Positions 47,036 through 59,600 of a DNA stretch of 64,000 nt are shown piece by piece. Position 1 is the stretch's first letter; every line of letters starts with the position of its first letter. The notes beneath the pieces were generated by a model. That model saw only the letters and a list, made by a program, of their open reading frames with translations. It had not been told where the DNA came from and ran no database searches. The translations under genes and the position numbers were made by a program. The stretch is taken from assembly GCF_000340215.1 (NCBI RefSeq), contig NW_006921536.1:198886-262885 (forward strand). The letters run 5' to 3'. The stretch comes from Pseudocercospora fijiensis CIRAD86. Its lineage: Eukaryota > Ascomycota > Dothideomycetes > Mycosphaerellales > Mycosphaerellaceae.

Positions 47036-48307
47036 TCATCCCGCAGCCTCAATACCTTCAATCCTCTTCAAAATCCCCTCCTTCCAAGCCCTAAACTCTT
47101 CCCTCCTCTCCTCACTCAACCAATCAACCTCAGGCGAAAACATGGTCCCCAACCCATACTCCAAACCCGCAGCATTACCTCTCCTTCTTCCTCCTCCTCC
47201 TCCTCCCTCAACCTCCCTACCCTCCTTCCCACCCCCTTTCTCCTTCCTCCTCAAAGGCGTCTTAGACGTCCGTTCTTGACATGTACTCTTCCTCGGCGTC
47301 CCCTCCCCATCATCATCCTCCAAATCCTCAAACCCTCCTTCAGGAATATTCTCGTACCATTCCATCTCCAACCAACCAGAATCTTCGGCTTCGAGGATAT
47401 AAAATCCAAGATCTGTTTCCAATTCTTTTTTCCCTGCTCCTGCATAATGACTTTCGAGAACTTTCTCTAGAGCCTCACGTTTCATGGTATGGACGTCTGA
47501 GTTTGAGATGGGTAGGCCTCGCATTCGAGCGCAGGTGATGGTGTGGAGTGCTAGGATGAGAGCTGGCCATTTGATCTCGGGTTTTGTTTCAGGGACTTCT
47601 GAAGGTGGTGGTGGAGCAGATTTGGCGGATTTGGCAGATTGGGGGGTCTTTCGTCGTCTTTTAGATCTTGATTCAGGTTCTGTTTGGGGCGGTGCGGCGC
47701 GAGATTCTATCTCGGCTTTCACTGCTCGGGCACCGACGAAGATGTGAGGTGCTGCTTTGGATGTAGAAGTGGATTGGCATATCGTTCTCACTAGCGTTGC
47801 GACAGATGATGGTAGTCCATCGATGTCTTGCTCCTCACTCGTGCTCTGACGTGGTGTTTTCTCTGCCTCATCTTCTTCAATCGCACGTTTTCTCTTTCCG
47901 CTCGATAGAGTCGTTGCATTTTTACCGGGAGTAACATTCTTTGACGTTGGTGTCTTGCTAGGCGTGCCTTCACCATTCAATGCATCCCTCCTCCTTCCCT
48001 CCACTCCCCTCGTAGGTGTCTTCGGAGTTCCAAGCACATCATCCAGAAACGCATACAACTTCTTGTACACGTTTGGCTTCACGGGCGGCTTGGGCTTGTC
48101 GATATCCAGCTCTAGTCTCTTCGCTAGCCTTTGACATGCGATATGCGCGCAAGCATAACTCCTTCCGATTTCTTCTTCGGGCTTGAGGTGGGCAGCTTTG
48201 GCGCGCGATTGGGATAGTAGTGAATTCGCGAGGGTGAGGAGTTCGGGAGGGAGGAAGGAGACGGTAGGTAGCAATGTCGTGAGAGCGAGTTCAATTGGCG
48301 TAGGCAT
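47036..48307 (-). CDS. ORC6: Origin recognition complex subunit 6
   Basis: Smallest ORC subunit, needed for loading the MCM helicase at replication origins. 423 residues, single exon, ATG 48307. The N-terminal cyclin-like TFIIB fold is recognisable: LALTTLLPTVSFLPPELLTL, SQSRAKAAHLKPEEEIGRSY and ACAHIACQRLAKRLELDI, then PPVKPNVYKKLYAFLDDVL. A long basic, Thr/Pro-rich linker with several TP/SP sites (GTPKTPTRG, TPSKTPTS) looks like CDK targets. A second helical unit is around 255-325 (WPALILALHTITCARMRGLP). The C-terminus (LGTMFSPEVDWLSEERREEF) is conserved in fungal Orc6. A glycine run (GGGGGG) near residue 376 is probably unstructured. Confidence 0.92.
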   Translation of the reverse strand: MPTPIELALTTLLPTVSFLPPELLTLANSLLSQSRAKAAHLKPEEEIGRSYACAHIACQRLAKRLELDIDKPKPPVKPNVYKKLYAFLDDVLGTPKTPTRGVEGRRRDALNGEGTPSKTPTSKNVTPGKNATTLSSGKRKRAIEEDEAEKTPRQSTSEEQDIDGLPSSVATLVRTICQSTSTSKAAPHIFVGARAVKAEIESRAAPPQTEPESRSKRRRKTPQSAKSAKSAPPPPSEVPETKPEIKWPALILALHTITCARMRGLPISNSDVHTMKREALEKVLESHYAGAGKKELETDLGFYILEAEDSGWLEMEWYENIPEGGFEDLEDDDGEGTPRKSTCQERTSKTPLRRKEKGGGKEGREVEGGGGGGRRRGNAAGLEYGLGTMFSPEVDWLSEERREEFRAWKEGILKRIEGIEAAG

Positions 48308-48931
48308 GATTGCAAGAGGTGGAAAGGGGTGTTCATCGCAGTACTACAATCATGAGGGCAAATTGCTGGAGACGCGAAGTCGGCTTCACTTACGCGCCTT
48401 TGCTCACGTCATCAACACACGCGCATGTGCTATTACCAGCTCCTTCATCTTAGCAACGACCAGATAATTCAGATAGTGGAATCTCCACCTGTCGAACGGG
48501 CAAAGCGATACAACAGTAGAGGTTCTCACGAAGCCTCAAAAGCCAACTTAATGCCCAAATCAGTGAAGTATATAAAGGCGTTGACCAACAACGCATAGCA
48601 TTTCAATACACGTTTTGTCATCCTATGAATTTGTTACATCGCCCATCCGCGGGCATACCCCCAACTCCATTGCCATGCCGCCATGAAGTCCCAGGATATA
48701 CCAATACGTTGGCCGCCCTCCAAACTACTCCTCCCTTATCCACCTTTCCAGTCCACCGATCCGATTCGAGATGGCGGCGACTGCGATTGTATCATAATAG
48801 GATTTTGCGATGATTGCCCCAATTGGAACGATCTTTGCACATCTGAAGGTCTATAAAAGTCCAATGCCATGGCTCGGGCTGCGCTACTAGATTCTGAGAC
48901 ATCATCAGTATTTCAGAAGTGAATATTTTGA
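48308..48931. other. Intergenic stretch
   Basis: It holds the promoter of ORC6 and the 3' flank of TUP1 (both minus strand). A TATATAAAGG-like element lies near 48570. No gene seen. Confidence 0.45.
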
Positions 48932-51096
48932 CTATACACGGTGTTCTAAACCACCAGTGTTGTATGGGAAGTAGCGCCAGATCCTAGCCTTCATGTCTCC
49001 AGAGCCGGTGGCGAACAAACCGCCCATTGGCGATGGGGCGACGGAGATGACTAAAAAAGAAATTAGCAGTAGTCTTGCAGACATTGACGCGATAAACCTA
49101 CCAGAGTTCTTATGTCCCTGCAGCATGAGCACAGCCTTTCCGGTCTCGGGATCCCAGAACTGCACTCCACGGTCTTTAGAGCCAGACATCACCCAAGATC
49201 CGTCGGGGGTAAGTGCTACACTCAGGACAAAGTCCTTGTGGCCTTCGAAAGTGCGGATACACTCGCCACTCTTTGGATTTGGCGGTGCGTTGCCCAGTGG
49301 TGCATACTGGCTACGTGGAGTCAATCTCCACATGCGGATGGTCTTGTCGAGAGATCCAGACACGAGGTGCTCTCCAGATGGGGAGAAAGCGACAGAGTAT
49401 ACACTGTCCTTATGACCCTGCTCGCCCTCTGTGCGTTCGACAAGCACGCCGGTCTGCGTGTCCCAGATGCGTACGCTCTTGTCCAAGCTACCAGCTGCAA
49501 CATATCGACCGTTTGGAGACATGGCGACCGTCGTCACTCCGTCTTCAATCGAGAGGGTGAGGACGCACTGATTGTCCTGCAGGTCCCAGAGTCTGATTGT
49601 TCTATCCCCAGATCCGGACGCAATGTATCTACCATCAGAGGCAAAGTCAAGGGAGTAAATGTCCTGGTCATGACCAGAGAATTGGTGACGAATCTGCTTG
49701 GCAGCAATGTCCCATACGCGAATGATCTTGTCTTCCGCGCCTGTAGCGAGGTATCGTCCATCTGGACTGAAGCATACGCTGCGGATGTAAAGATCGCCTT
49801 CGGAATTGGTTTGATTGTCCTGGAGGTGACAGACTTGGTTGCCAGAGTTGACATCATAGATCTGCGCCGATCTGTTGCAACCGGTTGCGACAAAGCGACC
49901 ATCATGACTGAAGCGAACACAGCACACCACGCTCTGGTGAGGAAGGTTGTGGACGAGGTCAACATCCAACCTGCGTGGCATCTGCGGGTTGAATACCGCG
50001 TGCCAGTCATCGCCCTGCTTCTTCAGGTGTGGAGGAAGCTTGTCTGGATCATAATCCGACAGCTGGTTGCCGATTCGGTCCAAGTCAACTGGGGTATAGG
50101 CGAAGTCTGGGGCAATCAATGCATTCGGGTTCGCTGGTCCTGGACCATTTGGTGGCGGCGTTGGGCGCGCGTGGTGTGGCGAGCCTGGGTAGGCTGCTGC
50201 ATGATTCTGCTGAGGTGTTGCAGGTCCACGTACTCCTGGTGGCGCTCCGAGGCGAGGCTTTCCAGCGCCTGGGCTAGCGGTGGGCTGAGGTGGCTGTCCT
50301 GGGTAGCCAACGAGACCTGGAGGACCCTGCTGTGGTTGACCATAGGCGAATGGGTTGTGCGGTGGTCCAGGAGGTGGTTGGGTGAGACCTGGAGGTGCTT
50401 GGCCTTGCATGTGTCCTGGCATGCCTGGCTGGCCTTGAGCTTCTTGAGGCGGAGGTGCAAGGCCTGGTCCACTCTGACCACCGCCGGCCATGATGCCTTG
50501 GAAGAGATTGGCAGGTCCGTGTCCTATGGCTGGAGGCTGCGGTTGAGGTGGTGCAGCGTGTGGGCCTTGCGAAGGACCACCTCGCTGCTCGAGCTCGTGT
50601 CGGAGACGCGCGATCTCGTCCTCATATCTGCAGAGCGTCAGTTGTTGCCGCTGGGTGGGCACTTGCAGGAAAGACTCACTTCTGCTTCATCTGGACGTGG
50701 CTGGTCTCGAGCTGATAGATCTTGGTCCTCACAAGTTCCATTTCCTGAATCTGCTGGTGCACTACTCGTAAACCAGTTAGCACATGTTTGCTGTCATGCA
50801 AGGAGTCCGGCCAATCTGGTGAAGGCCTATGTATATCAAGTTCAGGTGTCACGATGATTCTTGGGGAAAGCTCGATGAAAATGGCGCTGCGTGCTTCTTT
50901 GGCATGCCGACAAGCACACTGAGCTTGTGTCGCCTGCGATAGGGTATGGCGAAAGACAGGAACACTCACAATCGTGCTCATGGGCGGCTGACCGCTGAGT
51001 ATGCTGTTCGAACTCCGCGCGCACCTGGTCCAGCAGCTCCTGCAACCTGCTGCCCGCTTGCGGCCCCGGGGCCATGCCTCGGTGCGCGTTGTACAT
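48932..51096 (-). CDS. TUP1: Transcriptional corepressor Tup1 (RcoA/Groucho type)
   Basis: General corepressor recruited with Ssn6 to promoters. Four exons: 51096-50970, 50761-50680, 50627-49102 and 49050-48932; introns GTGAGT...GAGTAG (208 nt), GTGAGT...TGCAG and GTAGGT...TTTTAG; all phases join, 617 residues. The N-terminal tetramerisation coiled coil (SRLQELLDQVRAEFEQHTQR to YEDEIARLRHELEQR) is split over the first three exons. A Pro/Gln/Gly-rich linker of about 170 residues and LPPHLKKQGDDWHAVFNP precede seven WD40 repeats (e.g. VRFSHDGRFVATGCNRSAQI, VCFSPDGRYLATGAEDKIIR, ATGSGDMKARIWRYFPY). Ends GGLEHRV. Complete for the family. Confidence 0.96.
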
Positions 51097-53170
51097 TGTG
51101 CCGCGTTTGCGATCAGCTCCGTTGGCGATAGCAACGCGCAAATGTCGTCGTGGTCGGCGGTGAGTTGCCGGCGGCTAGACTGCCAACAGCGAGGGCGACG
51201 GCGACGTATGGCTGAGTCTCTTGTGACGAACTTTTCCCCAGCCCTTGCGCTCTGCGATACAACGGAACGCAGTCCGGGCGGCGTGGTGAGATGCGGTTTC
51301 GACTCAATGGGCGGGGATGGCTGATGGATGTTGGTCGATGGGAAGGAGGAGGGAGGCGAGGCGAGGCTTGGGATGGGGATGTTGGTGTGGCCGAGGCGAT
51401 GCTTTGGTGGAGCGCGGCGGCAATCACGACCCTCTCAAGTCTAACGGGGCATGGCAGGCTTTTGTCGTTCACAGTACAGATCTAAGTGTTAGCCAGGTTG
51501 CCAGGGTGGGGTGGGTCCGCGTCCCAGTCCATCGCTGCATTAGTGCAGAGCTTAAGCCCACCGTCTGATGACTCTGATCCTTGCATAGCGTGCCGGAGCG
51601 AGTGGAGCCAAGCTCAGACCCTACCGCTGTATGTATGCGGTCTCACACCTTTGTGCGTCTGCAGCAGCTCGCTTCCTGCTTCGGCCTCGACAGCTACATG
51701 GCCATGGCCCCTTGCTGCAACCACAGCAGTACTGTAGCACAAGTCACTCCATGAGCTTTCCGCATATGTCGCCCTTCCCAACGCCACCTGTCCACTGTGC
51801 TGTCTGCCGCCAAGCCGATTGCATACACCCGTTGCAGACCAGCTCGGTACTGTGCTCTACACTGACCTGAGCGGGCATAACAACGTCGCTTGGCATGGGG
51901 CGCATACGGCTGCAAAGCATGTATCCGCTGGCCGGCGTCTCCAACGCCTCACAACTGCATACACAAGCGATTGCAGGTGGAGTGATGCATATGCACTGCA
52001 CTGCACTGCACAACAGCCAGCACTCCGGCCACGAAGCCGATGCCACAGGCACAAGACAACCGCTGCCGATCTTAAGCCTAGCAAAGCATATACACAGAGC
52101 GAAATTTAGACGGCAATCAGGCTTTTGTGCAGCCATCCTCCCAAAGTCCAGGCCTTTTCCTAGCATGTCGGTTCTGCATTTGCATTTGGCCAAGGGACCA
52201 TTCGAGGAAGTCAGCATCACTTGCGCGTCGCGAGCCTCGATGATCGTGGACGTCAGAGCAAGGAACGTACTTCGGATATAACTGACTCTGAGTCTGTCTA
52301 CCACATCAAGGTACATGGATGCGCCAGATCCAGCACAGCGGTACCCTGAGAGGCCGCACTGTATCAGCTTGAGATTTGAGAAGCACAAAGCGCTTGGACG
52401 ACATCTTCTTTCGCCTCTCCCGGTCGACGAAACCGTTCGCTGCACAGAACCAGGATGACAAGGTTGGACATTCACCACCAAGCTTCTTCTAACGGCCAGG
52501 GTCGGCCCATTGAAGCTCCTCCCCGGTCCTGGCGCCATACAGATTATGCGCCTTTGAAACCCAATCTATTCTCTATGTAGAGGGTCCCAGGCCGGTCCTG
52601 GTCATGTATAAAAATCGCACTTGTGTTCGGAGCAGTGGAGTCACATACTTTCCCAGCGTTGCGGGATGGCGGGCAAAAGAAAGAGCAAGCGCACAGAGGA
52701 GCGAGGCTTTCACTGATGATTCGTGAAGCTTGCGGGAGCAGTGGAGTTCTGAACGTGGGAATGGCGCATCTGCGAGCACAAACTGTCTGGCTCCGCCAAA
52801 CGCTGTGACGATCGACCCGATTGGAGCAACCACAAGGAGTACAAATGCCAACACGTCTCTGCTTATTAACTCACCATGCGCCAGCGTCTCGTTTCTCGTG
52901 CTCCTGAGTCCTGAACCGAGTATGCGAATCGGTGGTTCGGAGACTTGCGTACAATCCCACTCAATGATCTCAATTACACTTCCAGCGTGCTTCTCGATCG
53001 CTCGGCCCGTGTATTGACTCGAAGCTGCCCACCTCCAATGTGTGCCCTGAAAGCAAGCACAAAGTCTATCGCTCGTCTTTACTGCAGCACCGCTCCATTG
53101 ACCAAATTGACATGGTGTTCCTGAGTGACTAAGATAACAAGAATCCCGCGTTCGCAGGATGGACGGGGTT
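51097..53170. other. Long region upstream of TUP1
   Basis: 2.1 kb, probably the TUP1 promoter and long 5' leader plus the 3' flank of the next minus-strand gene. Overlapping ORFs of 130-264 codons run on both strands (51744-52538 minus; 52573-53214 minus); the latter ORF overlaps the last exon of the gene at 53171 in another frame. They have no motifs and I treat them as chance in GC-rich DNA. Confidence 0.45.
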
Positions 53171-54010
53171 TCAAGATGCTGGCAGGATGGTTGGTAGACC
53201 ATCTCCGGGCTCATACAACCACCTCTCTTTATCCAATTTGTGCATCACCTCTTGTCTAAGCACTGCCATCATTTCCGGTCGATCGCGTTCGTACTCTGCA
53301 TGATATTAGTGGATCGCGCCGCTTGCCGCACATCTACCAGGACGAAGCAATTGGCATAAGGGGCTGCGGGAAAGTGGAAGAACTTGGAGAAGTAGAAGAA
53401 GCAAAATGCTCACCGTCTTCTGCCTGTCTGCTCTGCCGGACACCCATGTGCGTTCCTGACGTGAAGTACTTTCTTGCTGTAGCAGCATAGTAGGCATCAA
53501 GTTCGTCTGATTTGTGTCAACTATTGCCGCCGATGACGATGCGTCTTATTAGCCGGCCATACCTGGGTTGACCTCGCCATCTTCATGCCCTGACCCATAC
53601 ATAGGCATCAAAGAAGGCGTTCCCAGAGCAGGTGCACCCAGCAAGTAGCTACCATCAGGTTGTCTGTTCACAATATCTTGGTCCTCAACCTGCTGTCTCG
53701 CCGGCTTCGGTCGTGCATGTCTGCGCTCTGGAGAGCCATGCCTAAAACCTCGCTGTTGTAGCAGCTTCTGCCTTGGTGCCATTATTGTGTCTCTATCTGA
53801 TTCCGAATCCGCGAGCACTCCGTCTTCGAGTCTTGGTGTTGAGCGATTATTAGGTCGTCGCGTACGTGCAGAGGTGAGGAGGCCATTATGACGCGTCGAC
53901 GCAGCGCTCGCATGCGATCGCAGGCTGCTTTGTGAGGGCTGATGCCGCAGGGATGATGCTGTTGGTATGGTCGTCGCAAAAGGGTCGTGCGGTGGTCTGG
54001 GAGGAGGCAT
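53171..54010 (-). CDS. Unrecognised three-exon protein
   Basis: Exons 54010-53563, 53506-53414 and 53295-53171; introns of 56 nt (GTATGG, branch GGCTAATAA, acceptor ATCAG) and 118 nt (GTGAGC...TGCAG); phases agree, 221 residues. Residues 1-145 are disordered, with MPPPRPPHDPFATTIP at the start, an Arg/Pro/Ser core and QPDGSYLLGAPALGTPSLMP. The C-terminal 75 residues look folded and highly helical: DELDAYYAATARKYFTSGTH, RQAEDEYERDRPEMMAVLRQ and EVMHKLDKERWLYEPGDGLP. The last part becomes readable only through the two introns, and its composition strongly suggests real coding sequence. I do not recognise the family. Confidence 0.72.
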
Positions 54011-54458
54011 GCTGCGTATGACATGCGTCGTTTCAGGCGGATGAGAGCCTTGATAGAAGCATGAATCGCGCGACGGACATGTTCGGTTGCGGGTGGGTGC
54101 GATGAAGTAGCTGAAGTGGAAGTCGCTGGCAATGCTCAATTTACAGGCGCGAAGATTGTCTCAAACAAACGCAGATTAGCACTGGACACACTTTGTGCAA
54201 GGTACGGGCGAGTTGGCGGTAGAAACAGGACGTGTCTAGACCGTCCATGATAGCATGTTTGCAAGATAACAACCACTACTCAGTGAAGTCGTGCATCGCG
54301 CGACCGACTCCTCGAATGCTGATCTGATGGTATACAGCGTTTCTCAATCGTCTACGCACCAACCCATCGCCTCGCAGCCTCTCGTCTTCTCGCACACCAC
54401 TGCCTTCTGTTCATTCTTCTCCAGGCGCGGCCACTGGCACACAACTGATGAAAAAAGA
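54011..54458. other. Spacer between U2 snRNA 3' end and next gene
   Basis: It begins downstream of the U2 RNA (minus strand) and ends at the start codon of the 53171-54010 gene, for which it should hold the promoter. A T6 run (minus strand, 54451-54456) follows the U2 3' stem. No gene seen. Confidence 0.5.
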
Positions 54459-54755
54459 GGTCGCGTCAGCTGGAGATAGTGCAATACCAGCGACACGGTG
54501 ACGAGTGACATAGGCAAGCCCAGCGGTCACCCATCCAGGGCCAAAAATAAGTATAATCATTGAAGTGGCCGTAGCCACGTTTCAGAGATTAAACTGAAAA
54601 GAACAGATCTGTGGTGAACGTCAGTCGATGTCGAGAATGGCGTTTGTCAGGTGCGGTACATACACTACACTTGATCTAAGCCAAAAGGCAAAGCTGCAGT
54701 GCTGTTAGCAAAAGTGTCAAAGTGTATGGGTGGTTGGGTGAGTACGAACAGAGCT
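54459..54755 (-). ncRNA. U2: U2 spliceosomal snRNA, interrupted by introns
   Basis: U2 snRNA pairs with the intron branch site in the spliceosome. Exon 3 is 54608 to about 54459, exon 2 is 54693-54664 (30 nt), and exon 1 ends at 54750. Exon 2 has the stem I core TTTGCCTTTTGGCTTAGATC and ends GTGTAGT; exon 3 resumes ATCTGTTCTTTTCAG, so splicing restores the universal GTAGTATCTG. Stem IIa (TTTCAG/CTGAAA), stem IIb (GTGGC-TACG-GCCAC), Sm site ATTTTTGG, stem III (GGTGAC/GTCACC) and stem IV (GCTGG/CCAGC, loop TATTGCACTATCT) follow in order. Intron 2, 54663-54609, is GTATGT...ACTGAC...CACAG, 55 nt. Intron 1, 54749-54694, is GTTCGT...GCTAAC...TGCAG, 56 nt, and is less certain. Spliced length is about 186 nt, close to the 188 nt of human U2. 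Confidence 0.93.
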
Positions 54756-54784
54756 GGTGGAAGAAGAGGGTCTGGGTTTGCAAG

Positions 54785-54835
54785 TCTATAAGTACGAATT
54801 GCGAAGACGCTAAGTGCGGACCGTCATTGGCGTGA
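54785..54835 (-). promoter_or_regulatory. Putative U2 promoter: TATA-like and CCAAT elements
   Basis: TTATAGA at 54791-54785 lies about 30-35 nt upstream of the proposed 5' end (near 54755), and GCCAATGACG stands about 75 nt upstream. The spacing fits a Pol II snRNA promoter starting at exon 1 and would not fit a start directly at TTTGCC (54692). Confidence 0.45.
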
Positions 54836-55344
54836 CTTAACATACCTCCGGCAGTACAGAACCTACAGGGTGAGAGATTGTCGCGTACGAGCACAAAGCC
54901 ACTGGAAAGAGCTCATCTCTGTGCCGTTCTCACAGAGTTGTACAGCCTCACTGACCAGGAACAAAATGACTCAGCTTTCGAAAGCTCGCGGTACTGACTA
55001 TCGAAATGAACTCAACTTCGACTGCCAGAGGCGCTTGGCTCCAGCCAAGGGGGACGCACAGCTTTGACTGCCTTGAGAACTGCATCAATTTGACCTCCTA
55101 CATGCATGCTGCGCCAAGAGCAAATATTTTGAACTTCATGGTGGAAAATCTGTTCAGCTATTGCTACAAATACAGCCCTTACCGTCTACAGATTGCGACT
55201 CGAACCCTCAAAAAGGCCGCAACTTCGATCATGCCGATGCCATGACTTCGACTATTATTAATACCCAGCTTCATTTCTCCCTGGACCGCACAGCCTCGAA
55301 TCTTGATCTGCAGGCCATGAACATTGAGTATCCAGCAGAAGGGC
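54836..55344. other. Intergenic stretch upstream of U2
   Basis: Between the U2 promoter and the 3' end of the next minus-strand gene. No supported gene. Confidence 0.45.
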
Positions 55345-56175
55345 TTATGCTCCAATCCAGACGCCATGAGGGCGACTCAGGTACACGATAGCGCCAAAGA
55401 GAAAGGCCAACACGATCATCCAGAGCGCAAAAAACATCATACACGTAATCGCGCGTCTCGTCTCGATTTCGCTTTCCGACATCCAGGATTCCTCCGACCA
55501 AGCTCGCTGGAATCGCGACCAGTGATGATGTCGCAGAAATTTCATGCCCCGACGACGACGATGAAGGTTGGGACGAGATGCCCTCAAAGACCGGGCGTTG
55601 ACGAATTGCTCTTCAAGTGTAATCGCCCTCTCTAAGTCAGCTTCGTTGGCAGTCCCGCGTGCACACCGGGCGCGGACATTTTGTGCGCATTTTGAGAAAA
55701 ATTCTTGCAGGAGACGTCGTAGTCCCAAAGTGTAGTCAGGAGGCAAATCTCTTGCGCACTCGGAGTACCCTGGCAGCGAGCTGAGTTGGGAGTCTGAAGC
55801 TGAATCGGAATCCACAACCTCCACATTTACGGAACCATAGTTCTCTGGTCCATCATGATTTAGAAGCATGGCATGCTCGGAGGTACTTGCTGTGTCGCTG
55901 GGGAGGTACATCCTTTCCTGCACGAAGCCATCTTGGGTTGTCTGAATTCTGGAGAGACCGGGCATTTCCGGACAAGAGCAATGTCGGTTTTGCTGATTTT
56001 GGCACATCGGCGGCTCGTTGAAAGAGACTGGCAGAATGTGTCGATTTCCACCACGGACCATGTCGTCGACGAAGTGCTTTGTTGCCTTGATGTGCTTGAA
56101 GAAAATGATCTCTGCTCGCTTGGAAATTTCTTGTTGCAGCAGAATTGATGTACCGGCAGTCTCGTGCTCGATCAT
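55345..56175 (-). CDS. Hypothetical protein with C-terminal membrane anchor
   Basis: 276 residues, single exon, ATG 56175. The N-terminal half is soluble and acidic with a short His/Cys-containing stretch (NEPPMCQNQQNRHCSCPEM) and a Ser/Asp cluster (VVDSDSASDSQLSSLPGYSE). PPDYTLGLRRLLQEFFSKCA begins a helical part, an Arg-rich segment follows (RASRPNLHRRRRGMKFLRHH), and one membrane span stands near the C-terminus (ITCMMFFALWMIVLAFLFGA). The basic flank before the span suggests the N-terminus is cytosolic. Not a recognised family. It neighbours another membrane protein of unknown function on the opposite strand. Confidence 0.65.
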   Translation of the reverse strand: MIEHETAGTSILLQQEISKRAEIIFFKHIKATKHFVDDMVRGGNRHILPVSFNEPPMCQNQQNRHCSCPEMPGLSRIQTTQDGFVQERMYLPSDTASTSEHAMLLNHDGPENYGSVNVEVVDSDSASDSQLSSLPGYSECARDLPPDYTLGLRRLLQEFFSKCAQNVRARCARGTANEADLERAITLEEQFVNARSLRASRPNLHRRRRGMKFLRHHHWSRFQRAWSEESWMSESEIETRRAITCMMFFALWMIVLAFLFGAIVYLSRPHGVWIGA

Positions 56176-56629
56176 AAATTGTGTGGCCTATAAATCCTCG
56201 AAGCCCAGAGGGAACCACATTTGTCCTCAGCCTTATCGTTTTGGATTGATCATGCTGACTAGCAGCTACACGAGCAATCCTGAGGACTTGGAATTCACGA
56301 CCCATAGTGGGAACGGTACGAGATATCTGTATCCTCATGATCCAGAATACGGCGAGGAAACTCGATTGAAATGAAGAAATCTAACTCTCAAGCCAAAAAG
56401 ACAGCAAGACGCAGCCTCGCCATTCAAAAAGCTTAAATTATAACCTCACGACCGCCAAGCTTGGTTCCAAACTCAGACTCCAATGTGTCCAGCTACCAGA
56501 CCACAACCTCCAATCGATCAACTGTCAACTCTACAAAAATAAGGTCTAACTGCCTAGAACCGACTCGATTAATCTAGTATACTAGAAATGAGAGGAGAGG
56601 GATCTTGCTTCAAATGAAGGAAGCAGATT
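56176..56629. other. Divergent intergenic stretch
   Basis: Lies between two start codons pointing away from each other and should hold both promoters. AT-rich around 56440-56580. No clear elements seen. Confidence 0.45.
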
Positions 56630-57523
56630 ATGAGGAAGGCGCCAGGTATTTCGATATTTCTGGAGACCTCCAAGTCCAGAACCTCCGTGGACTTCGCTAG
56701 CATTAGCGAGTATCTCGCCGTGGCGAAAAATGGCGAATGTGAAGTAAAAACTTTCCACCTCTTTCCTGCACTATGTGAAACACGCAAAATGGTCCACAAA
56801 GATCCACAAATGACAACAGAACCTCACTTCCGCGACCTCTCTAGTTCGAAGTCTTCTCGCATTTCTGGTCGAACCATCGCCACCTCCTCACAGCTCATCA
56901 TGAACCTCTTGTGCATGCTCGTCGACTGTATCCATGAAGACTGGCAGACAGATAATCCGACTCACGGAAGTACGATACGTCAAGGCCTGTTCCACCTGCT
57001 GCGATTCTTTCTGGCGCTTCTGCTGACAATTTTGATACCGCTCACCATCGACTTGCTCCTGATCGTCTCAAACGTGACGGCACGCTGGTTCTACTCCACG
57101 GACGACCGTGCATCGCTCAATTTCCGCCGCTAACTACGCCTGCTTCTCATCTTTGCGCCGATTGTCAATGTCGTCGCAGCTACAGCCATCCGGTTCTGCA
57201 CGGCGCTTACATTCGGCGAAAGCGTCGTTTACGGCAGCACCGCGACGGTTATCTGCCAAAGTCTTATTGTGGTGATGCCGCTTTTCCTGGCAAGCGTTGA
57301 ATGGATCATGGCTTGCGTGAACGCCATCGACCTCTGGGTTGGAGTGAGATTTGGACCTACGGTTGATGCGGCGACGATTCACAGGTTATCTGAGAACGTG
57401 TCGAGGTTGATTGAGAGACGTCGGGAACAGAACGTCAGAAGAGCAGCAGAGGATGTGGTCACGCAACTGGTACAGGGTGGTCAGCAGGAACAGGAGCCGC
57501 CGCCACCGCCGTACGTGCAATGA
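56630..57523 (+). CDS. Predicted multi-span membrane protein, frame broken by a TAA
   Basis: A frame of 298 codons from ATG 56630 to TGA 57523 has a single internal TAA at 57131-57133 after codon 167. Before it: soluble N-terminus, then hydrophobic LLRFFLALLLTILIPLTIDL continuing LLIVSNV. After it, in the same frame: LRLLLIFAPIVNVVAATAIR, then VICQSLIVVMPLFLASVEWI, and a basic cytosolic-like tail with a heptad helix (HRLSENVSRLIERRREQNVR) ending PPPPPYVQ. The two halves make a coherent three- or four-span protein. TAA lies in GCTAAC, a branch-point consensus; a 72-nt intron 57108-57179 (GTGCAT...CGCAG) would remove it in frame. Otherwise it is a mutated gene. Confidence 0.6.
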
Positions 57524-58184
57524 GCGTTGGATGTCGTTTGGATGCCACTCAGTCTTCGAGTACCACACTCCCCCGCCACAGGAGAATCAGGGATCGTGGC
57601 GAAGATTGAAGACCCACGAGTCTAGGCAGAAGGGCAAGACAGGAAGGCCGATCGCAAGGTTACAGACAGTCTGGAGAAGCACACGGGGGTTCGAAAGGGA
57701 GGGGAAGGCTGCTAGACACGTCAATCTCAATCAAGTGATACATAAGCGAAGGCCAAGGGTATCTTTCAAAGCACTCCACTCGCCTGGTCTTCATTCCAGT
57801 CATAGTCTTCTTATCGCCTGCTCGTGCCTCCGTATCCTGTACTAGTAATGTACGTAATGCTCTCATAAGTAGTGCTTCTCGAACCTGAAGATCGCAGGAC
57901 AGCTGAGAAGGAATTAGTCAGGAATGAAGACTCCGTTGAAGTGCTCTCACATTTCGAGCTCTGGCTTTAAGCCGACGAGGCCGAAGTCCAGATATTGGAG
58001 GATGGACTCGAGCTGTATGGGTTGGTTGTGGAGGTGCTCCAATCGAATGGGTCAAAAACGAAGTGCCTTCTGATGAAGATTGGCGTTTCCTCGAGTGCGA
58101 TCGAGGTCTTGTGTAGTGAGGGCTCGTTGTAGAAGAGGAAGGAGTGCTGCAGTGGCAGATCTGATTGTCCAAAAGAAAGTGCTC
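57524..58184. other. Intergenic stretch between converging genes
   Basis: 3' flanks of the membrane-protein gene and of SARAF. Overlapping ORFs have no motifs. Nothing else seen. Confidence 0.5.
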
Positions 58185-59265
58185 TCAGCGTCGCCTCGTG
58201 CCTCCGAATCCTGTAGATTCATGCCTACTGCTGCTTGGCGTGGAGGAGCCGCCTCCCCAGCTTGACCCTCCTCCGTAGCTAGGTGACCTGTTGCTGCTAC
58301 CGAACCATCCCGAAGGTTCTGTTTCTCGGTAGTCAGGTTGACGGCGGCCTCCTCCAAACCAGCTTGATGGGCCTGGTTGCGGGTCCTCGTAGCGGGTCCG
58401 ATTGTTGCGGTTGGCAAATTGGCTTGCTGCGTATCCTGCTGCTGCGCCGGCGGCTGTGCCAGACCAGAAACCTACAGTTGTATTGATATCAGTATGGCAG
58501 TTCACACAGCAATGCGAGATTTGACCCACCTGGCCGCCATTGTTGATTATTGCTAGAGCTCGAGCTTGAAGATCTGGTATTGCTGTAAGTCTTCGGTTTT
58601 GGCTGGGCTCGAGGCGTGTACGGTGGTGGAGGATCATCGTTACTACCGTCATCACCTCCACCACCTCCCCAGCCACCGCGTCCTGTACGGCGACCAGCAT
58701 TGCCATGATTGTTGCGGCCACCATTCCAGACGCTGTAGATGATCACACCGACCACGAACAAGAAGAATAGCCAGAACAATAGCGTCGGAATCGTATCGTT
58801 AACATCGCTTCCAGAATATGAGTCCGGCTTCGATCGCCATGCTCGCTGTGTGCCGTACTTTGTTTCCCCCTCTGGCGTAAGCATGAGCCGGTACTCGACA
58901 CCACATGATCCTTTGAGAATGTATGGGTCATTCGGAGAGTCGTAGCCCTCACAGATGACGTCTGTGCTTCCCAGCTTGAATTCCGGAGGCAGGCTTGCCT
59001 TGCACGTCCATTGGACATCTTCAGAATCGTACTCAGATCCAGAGTTGGTGCATCTCATGACATCGACTTCGTACTTCCCTCTGGCATTGCCGCCGACGCA
59101 TTTGAGCTGAGGTATGGCTGACACGCGGCGATGAGAGGTTTTGGCGTCACTGCGTAGAGTCAAGGTCTTAACTTGAGAGAGCTTGACCGCATCATTCTTT
59201 TTGGAGTATGCGAGTGCGGTCGTCGTTGTCGCCAAGACGACTGCTGCAATAGTGTCGAAGCGCAT
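58185..59265 (-). CDS. SARAF/TMEM66-like protein
   Basis: Relative of the ER membrane protein that moderates store-operated calcium entry in animals. Two exons, 59265-58530 and 58471-58185; intron 58 nt (GTGGGT...CTGTAG); 340 residues. Signal peptide 1-19 (MRFDTIAAVVLATTTTALA). The lumenal domain carries the family motifs VKTLTLRSDAKTSHRR, IPQLKCVGG, EDVQWTCKASLPPEFKLGST and VICEGYDSPNDPYILKGSCG with conserved Cys. One membrane span follows at about 165-190 (TLLFWLFFLFVVGVIIYSVW). The cytosolic tail is Gly-, Ser-, Pro- and Trp-rich (RGGWGGGGG; PPPPYTP; PSSWFGGGRR), includes an FWSGTAAGAAAGYAASQF hydrophobic stretch and ends FGGTRRR. PPPPY resembles a WW-domain ligand. Yeasts lack a STIM/Orai system, so the role in fungi is unknown. 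Confidence 0.9.
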
Positions 59266-59600
59266 GTTGGCGATGCTGTGGTCGACCGAAGTCAATTATC
59301 GATTGCGATGTTCTGTTGAAGGAATGGTGTTGCGCTCTACAATGAAGATTTCAATATGTCAGTGGCAAGCATTGTCACGAATGGAAAGCTGTTCACAGGA
59401 CAGTTGGCACATTCAAAAGAAAGCTCCAGATGTTGCCTTGCGAAGGTGGCGAGCGAGCAACCTGAGGCAGCAATGCTGAGTCATCCTTGAAGATCGCAAC
59501 TTCCTCGACTTCACAACTTAGGTGTCTGTATATCAGCAACTCGCGCTGATTGGCTCGACCCACTTTTACCCCTGTCCCACCCCCAACCTCGAGTTGCTAG
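59266..59600. other. SARAF promoter region
   Basis: Normal composition up to about 59590, where RIP sequence begins. It should contain the SARAF promoter. No motif seen. Confidence 0.4.

Follow-up and report, generated by a model that had tools for sequence, protein, structure and literature searches.

Does a U2 snRNA gene that is interrupted by an mRNA-type intron, within the very sequence that recognizes the branch point of pre-mRNA, make the spliceosome dependent on its own activity for renewal? An earlier note on this DNA had drawn that conclusion from a single U2 locus in the window, by which we mean the whole 64,000-nucleotide stretch that was analysed. The answer depends on whether the intron is real, on whether other U2 genes carry it, and on a second class of introns in this and other small-RNA genes. 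Table 1 gives the anatomy of the locus.

Table 1. Features of the U2 snRNA locus in the window, with transcription start and splicing as predicted from the sequence.
Feature	Position	Strand	Remark
U2 snRNA gene	54755-54454	minus	with 3' element, 54755-54415
TATA-like TTATAG	54786..54791	minus	36 nt upstream of predicted start; weak alone
U2 exon 1, AGCTCT	54750..54755	minus	equals 5' end of spliced L001 and L003
Intron 1, 56 nt, GTTCGT...GCTAAC...CTGCAG	54694..54749	minus	donor weak
Intron 1 branch site CTAAC	54704..54708	minus	
Element CCACCCATACACTTTG in intron 1	54718..54733	minus	offset 22 from predicted start
U2 exon 2, CTTTGCC...GTGTAGT	54664..54693	minus	stem I, then GUAGUA up to its fifth base
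Intron 2, 55 nt, GTATGT...CTGAC...CACAG	54609..54663	minus	within branch-point recognition sequence; absent from L001-L003
Intron 2 branch site CTGAC	54620..54624	minus	12 nt upstream of 3' splice site
U2 exon 3, ATCTG..., to 3' element	54454..54608	minus	mature 3' end approximate
Sm site ATTTTTGG	54541..54548	minus	
3' element TTTCATCA-hairpin-GGAGAAGA	54415..54453	minus	common to U1, U2, U3 and U4 genes

The locus scores 94.4 bits with the covariance model for U2 in Rfam, RF00004 (gathering score 46; E 1.4e-17), although its 5' part is displaced by the introns; no other RNA match in the window reaches gathering level. Beyond this score, the copy has the U2 recognition sequence once spliced, an Sm site and the U2 stems, and in spliced form its 5' end pairs with U6 (helix II). 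A predicted fold of 51 pairs is common to five spliced U2 copies of the genome; eight of these pairs are changed on both sides and nine are broken in at least one copy. In the window copy none of the 51 is broken, despite letter changes, and pair 117/141 is changed on both sides. Transcription would start at 54755, the starts of all genes discussed here being deduced from the known 5' ends of these RNAs; the TTCTTC initiator lies 4 nt farther upstream than in the other copies. The neighbouring genes, at 47036-59295, encode ORC6, a WD40-repeat protein and a SARAF-family protein, and the SARAF-family gene has one probable protein-coding intron of 58 nt (58472-58529).

On the minus strand the U2 sequence runs to ...GATCAAGTGTAGT, where the exon ends at 54664, and is followed by the 55 nt of intron 2 (GTATGT...CGACTGACG...CACCACAG), after which U2 resumes with ATCTGTTCTTTTCAG from 54608. 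Excision of these 55 nt gives exactly GUGUAGUAUCUGUUC, and the branch-point recognition sequence GUAGUAUCUG is regained. Because both ends of the insert are defined by uninterrupted copies elsewhere in the genome (L001, L002 and L003), its boundaries were not picked for convenience. Intron 2 fits a strict consensus for donor, branch site and acceptor, and contains a second CTGAC at 54646-54650. With the exact restoration and the three uninterrupted copies, the description in the earlier note of a 55-nt GT-AG intron in the branch-point recognition sequence is confirmed.

The same three copies count against what had been concluded from the intron, namely that U2 renewal must pass through its splicing: judging from their sequences, L001, L002 and L003 are uninterrupted at this place. 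The earlier note had itself named a U2 copy free of intron 2 as the observation that would speak against it, and our search of the genome (73.9 Mb, 30 contigs) found three in sequence. The U2 model finds at least seven places, at least six of them above the cut-off. L001, L002 and L003 score 140-146 bits and have an intact branch-recognition sequence and a probable 5' intron; the window copy resembles L001 most closely (92%) and L005 less so (77%). A 19-base piece taken from the U2 5' domain is present without change at five places (the window, L001, L002, L003 and L005), at none with one mismatch and at one, L015, with two; L015 was rejected as a U2 by eye. Among the three-mismatch matches, the 19-mers CTTTTGACTTAGTTAAAGT and CTTTTGTCTTAGTTAAAGT lie on many contigs (e.g. 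C1:11688319, C2:3701432) and probably represent a dispersed repeat. L006 (C1:4686045-4686240) is a diverged, intron-free U2 that reads GUAGUAAUCUG, with one extra base after GUAGUA; it has the 3' element, and the computed pairing between its 5' end and U6 is only -5.8 kcal/mol. L007 is U2-like in its 3' half only.

We also searched collections from other species. A 20-base U2 pattern had no match in genome_contigs or viral_contigs, and a 23-base pattern matched four stretches in genome_contigs and none in viral_contigs. All four belong to records that bear bacterial names and are probably contamination of eukaryotic origin. Of the places inspected, L093, L094 and one in L095 have a continuous branch-recognition sequence, and the second in L095 is a partial U2 match. 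These foreign stretches are too distant for dating the introns, and we dropped that use of them.

L005 is split as well, by a different 55-nt intron inserted two bases upstream (GTGTA|GTAAGT...TTCCAG|GTATCTG). Given sites 2 nt apart and no similarity between the two introns at p < 0.02, the branch-recognition introns look like independent gains. Two gains would make a simpler history than the exact loss of one old intron from several copies, a reading that is uncertain because gene conversion among copies or intron sliding is possible.

The window copy has a second probable intron near its 5' end, which the earlier note overlooked. In all five conserved U2 copies, an intron-like stretch lies upstream of CCTTTTGGC, and its excision brings GCC directly behind AGCTCTCTTT or a close variant of it. 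Exon 1 of the window copy is then only AGCTCT; the GTTCGT donor is poor, and intron 1 fits only a loose consensus. Spliced in silico, the window U2 shows no difference from spliced L001 in the first 108 nt or from spliced L003 in the first 106, a restoration that is judged against copies themselves spliced in silico and is less independent than that of intron 2. The boundaries of the first introns of U2, U3 and U4 were chosen to restore known 5' ends; only those of the U2 branch-recognition introns, the U1 Sm-site introns (L035, L036) and the U1 5' introns are fixed by uninterrupted copies.

Base pairing with U6 bears on intron 1 from another side. Its excision restores 10 bp of U2/U6 helix II in the window copy. 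With L008 of this genome as the U6 partner, the computed pairing of L001, L002, L003, the window copy and L005 is -14.1, -9.9, -14.1, -14.1 and -9.9 kcal/mol when spliced and -5.0, -7.8, -4.9, -4.5 and -3.4 kcal/mol when unspliced. As a control, 160 upstream windows were joined in place of exon 1; 3, 6, 3, 1 and 7 of them, in the same order of copies, pair as well, counts that take in windows overlapping the true exon. The three U2 genes without intron 2 thereby appear still to carry a probable 5'-proximal intron whose excision restores helix II. The Rfam alignment suggests something else, that there is no intron 1 and that U2 starts inside it with a mature 5' end ...ATCTTCACAGGCC, since RF00004 aligns end to end in L001-L003 at their 140-146 bits. 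We consider this very unlikely: helix II would be weaker (-3.4 to -7.8 against -9.9 to -14.1 kcal/mol spliced), the letters at that place differ in the window copy and in L005, and the same layout is found in U1, U3 and U4, whose 5' ends are well known.

We found U1 at seven places, all below the family cut-off, and at an eighth (L052) through the 3' element; this count of eight copies leaves out L071 and L072, which match U1 weakly (E 0.64 and 0.057), and L070 and L073 (U1-like by eye). Six of the eight have an intron within the 5'-splice-site recognition sequence (e.g. ATACTT|GTAAGC...ACAG|ACCTTG), with GC donors in L036 and L037. In the other two, L034 (diverged and intron-free) and L035, the sequence continues without a 5' intron precisely where the junction is predicted. 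L035, L036 and L052 have an intron at or just upstream of the Sm site. Once spliced, all eight begin, within 4 nt, with ACUUAC and end with AAUUUUUGCUGGC. In both U4 copies found, an intron after AUCCRAGUGCACG interrupts the U6-pairing region; the pairing is -21.2 and -20.1 kcal/mol spliced against -11.5 and -7.2 unspliced, and in the control 3 of 160 upstream windows pair as well in each copy. A 5' intron is also present in both U3 copies found.

U6 is different. Only two copies were found (L008 and L009), on two contigs and without an intron; they share about 2 kb of identical sequence, the U6 RNA included, and unusual letters in the U6 internal stem-loop region pair with the 5' end of spliced U4. 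One search pattern for an intron-split canonical U6 matched 10 places, two of them the known U6 copies, against 6 in the control; a second matched 17 against 3, and none of the six inspected by eye was a U6. The sole U5 match, L030 (43.4 bits), is without the 3' element, and we do not accept it as settled; introns may interrupt the true U5 and have kept it from being found.

The census comes to 21 introns of 52-67 nt in 17 genes, one of which is in the candidate Sm-type RNA L061 and is without an uninterrupted relative. Twenty of the 21 fit the loose consensus and 15 the strict one. Stretches that combine a donor, a branch site at suitable spacing and YAG are rare: the 64-kb sequence taken on both strands at eight lengths gives 7 strict and 24 loose fits in 1,023,078 windows, counts that include the introns under study and any protein-coding introns. 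We infer that the two in the window copy are ordinary U2-type GT-AG introns that the spliceosome would remove.

Introns in spliceosomal RNAs have been taken for relics of reverse splicing close to the catalytic centre, and the earlier note found that the position of intron 2 fits this idea well. Extended to the whole set, this explanation has introns reverse-spliced at contacts with pre-mRNA and copied back into the genes, and gives the first introns no special function. The recognition sites fit it: the U2 branch-recognition sequence is split in two copies, 2 nt apart, by introns without detected similarity, and U1 is split where it recognizes the 5' splice site. The set as a whole is left unexplained, because the pairing region of U4, the U1 Sm site and U3 are also split and are not catalytic contacts. 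Nor does it predict the sequence element described below, which is placed by its distance from the start and not from the donor. While reverse splicing may be right for the branch-recognition introns, as an account of all of them it seems to us rather unlikely.

A further feature ties these genes together. Downstream of U1, U2, U3 and U4 lies TTTCATCA, followed by a small hairpin and GGAGAAGA, an arrangement found at 28 places (L050-L077) against 3 for a reversed control. Thirteen of the places are behind listed U1, U2, U3 or U4 genes and one is behind L007; the other 14 are variants, unnamed loci or chance. L002, L006, L033, L034 and L037 have the 3' element with one or two letters changed. 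A relaxed form gave 39 places (control 12), of which three new ones (L097-L099) were read and matched to no known RNA. The 3' element is probably a 3'-end processing signal of polymerase II small RNAs, and at the level of sequence it marks the window U2 as a gene of the same class. Several of the candidate or snRNA-derived loci with this element (L060, L061, L064, L070-L073 and L007) have Sm-like sites.

An internal element, CCACCCCTACACTTTG or close variants, recurs in the first introns of U1, U2, U3 and U4; in 14 genes it lies 22-24 nt downstream of the predicted start regardless of the length of exon 1. We scanned 25 loci with matrices drawn from 12 element instances picked by eye, leaving out of each matrix the RNA family that was being tested. 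In 14 loci the best match fell at offset 22-24, all of them first-intron genes and from four families, with p <= 0.015 against shuffles in 13 of the 14 and a weak match in U2 L002 (p 0.21). Eleven of the 25 lack the element at that place: L006 (intron-free), L034 and L035 (without a 5' intron), L036 (a first-intron U1 with a truncated element) and seven variant or unnamed loci. Unless these copies are silent, such genes therefore have no strict need of the element. Nothing comparable was seen in the introns at the branch-recognition sequence or the Sm site. Across the genome, the 16-mer with up to two mismatches occurs at 38 places against 24 for its reverse, a modest excess; eight of the 38 are in small-RNA genes, and of the other 30 we inspected seven by eye and saw no small-RNA gene. 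With at most one mismatch it occurs five times in the genome, four of them within these introns, which contain four more at two mismatches.

What do these introns share, ancestry or a function? Among cross-family pairs of first introns, 15 of 36 align at p < 0.02, compared with 1 of 36 pairs involving other introns, in a test that used two of the six U1 and four of the five U2 first introns. Internal sequence common to introns of unrelated RNAs could be due to common descent, that is, to an introner-like spread among small-RNA genes that owes nothing to promoter function. The local alignments, however, cover only 13-37 nt of introns that are 52-67 nt long, and the snRNA introns compared, to which this test of introner-like spread is confined, have mainly the element in common. 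Common descent should also keep the distance from the donor, yet this varies from 10 to 17 nt (mean 13.8, s.d. 2.6), whereas the distance from the start hardly does (22.6, s.d. 0.63; both sets of values were entered by hand from the intron list and the matrix scan). We find common descent unlikely. Column information over the best 16 columns in 15 genes is 13.7 bits when the genes are aligned by start and 12.2 when aligned by donor, and 500 controls with jittered starts had a mean of 10.1 and a maximum of 13.1 bits. Intron boundaries that drift around a position fixed to the start are predicted by a downstream promoter element, and not by intron descent or reverse splicing. We infer that the element is core-promoter-like, acts downstream of the start and is housed in the intron.

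We weighed one more possibility for the window copy itself, that it is a dead gene whose introns are never removed, functional U2 coming from L001-L003. The weak donor of intron 1 and the existence of three copies without the branch-recognition intron would agree with this. Its spliced form, however, is identical to other copies over 106-108 nt, 0 of 51 pairs are broken despite changes, and the Sm site, the element and the 3' element are all present. A dead gene seems quite improbable to us, and even if it were one, the 5' introns of the other copies would remain.

The reading that we prefer, to which we give a probability of roughly 0.7, is that the genome has at least five conserved U2 genes, that the window copy is split by two spliceosomal introns, and that the class of first introns houses a start-fixed, promoter-like element. 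Intron 2 would be specific to the window copy, with a different intron 2 nt away in L005, and intron 1 would be one member of a genome-wide class of short first introns that begin 6-13 nt after the start of U1, U2, U3 or U4. Transcription would use the element 22-24 nt from the start. The finished snRNA could not contain it, as the 5' end must pair with its partners, and splicing would cut it out of the RNA. We propose that nearly all conserved copies have retained their first intron because it houses the promoter element.

A more general form of this proposal is that the polymerase II small-RNA genes (U1, U2, U3 and U4) use a downstream intronic core promoter, that splicing of its own U1, U2 and U4 feeds the spliceosome, and that intron loss is selected against because the promoter would go with the intron. 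We think this could equally well prove right or wrong. The broader claim of the earlier note, that spliceosome renewal needs the spliceosome's own splicing, is not supported as far as intron 2 is concerned, and judging by the other genes likely holds through the U2 5', U4 and U1 introns. If it does hold, renewal would be self-dependent in a filamentous fungus, and blocked splicing should deplete mature U4 and U2. It is tempting to speculate that the start-fixed element, if a promoter, gives selection a reason to retain introns in snRNA genes. Such genes may have been overlooked elsewhere, because the Rfam U2 model puts the 5' end of L001-L003 in the intron and U1 falls below its cut-off.

The closest parallel is Rhodotorula hasegawae, a basidiomycete yeast, in which the U2 intron is said to be about 60 bp long and to lie just downstream of the branch-site recognition sequence, and in which U1 and U5 reportedly have introns too (Takahashi et al. 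1996), in the case of U1 in conserved sequences. Both fungi have an mRNA-type intron in a U2 gene near the branch-site recognition domain and introns in conserved U1 sequences. The R. hasegawae U2 intron reportedly lies beside the recognition sequence, whereas here the intron is inside it, in two of several copies and at slightly different sites, and a second intron is present. U4 introns and a shared internal element are not known to occur in R. hasegawae, and we found no report of either in one open library that is thin in older papers. Introns in snRNA genes are as such known, both in U2 of R. hasegawae (Takahashi et al. 1993, as cited in PMC2586383) and in fungal U6 (Tani and Ohshima 1991; Canzler et al. 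2016, as cited in PMC9789556 and PMC5832005); the U4 introns, the scale and the shared element appear to be new. Fungal U6 offers the same situation of a spliceosomal intron in a spliceosomal RNA, but here both U6 copies found are intron-free and U1, U2 and U4 are split instead. The passage of PMC5832005 that names often interrupted RNAs gives only U3 and U6, with introns in 138 of 310 fungal U3 snoRNA genes, and three U3 genes with introns are described for N. crassa (PMC2780460). Both U3 copies here conform to that pattern, in which a small RNA with its own transcription unit has a spliceosomal intron close to the 5' end; unlike in the fungal U3 case, the layout and the internal element extend to U1, U2 and U4.
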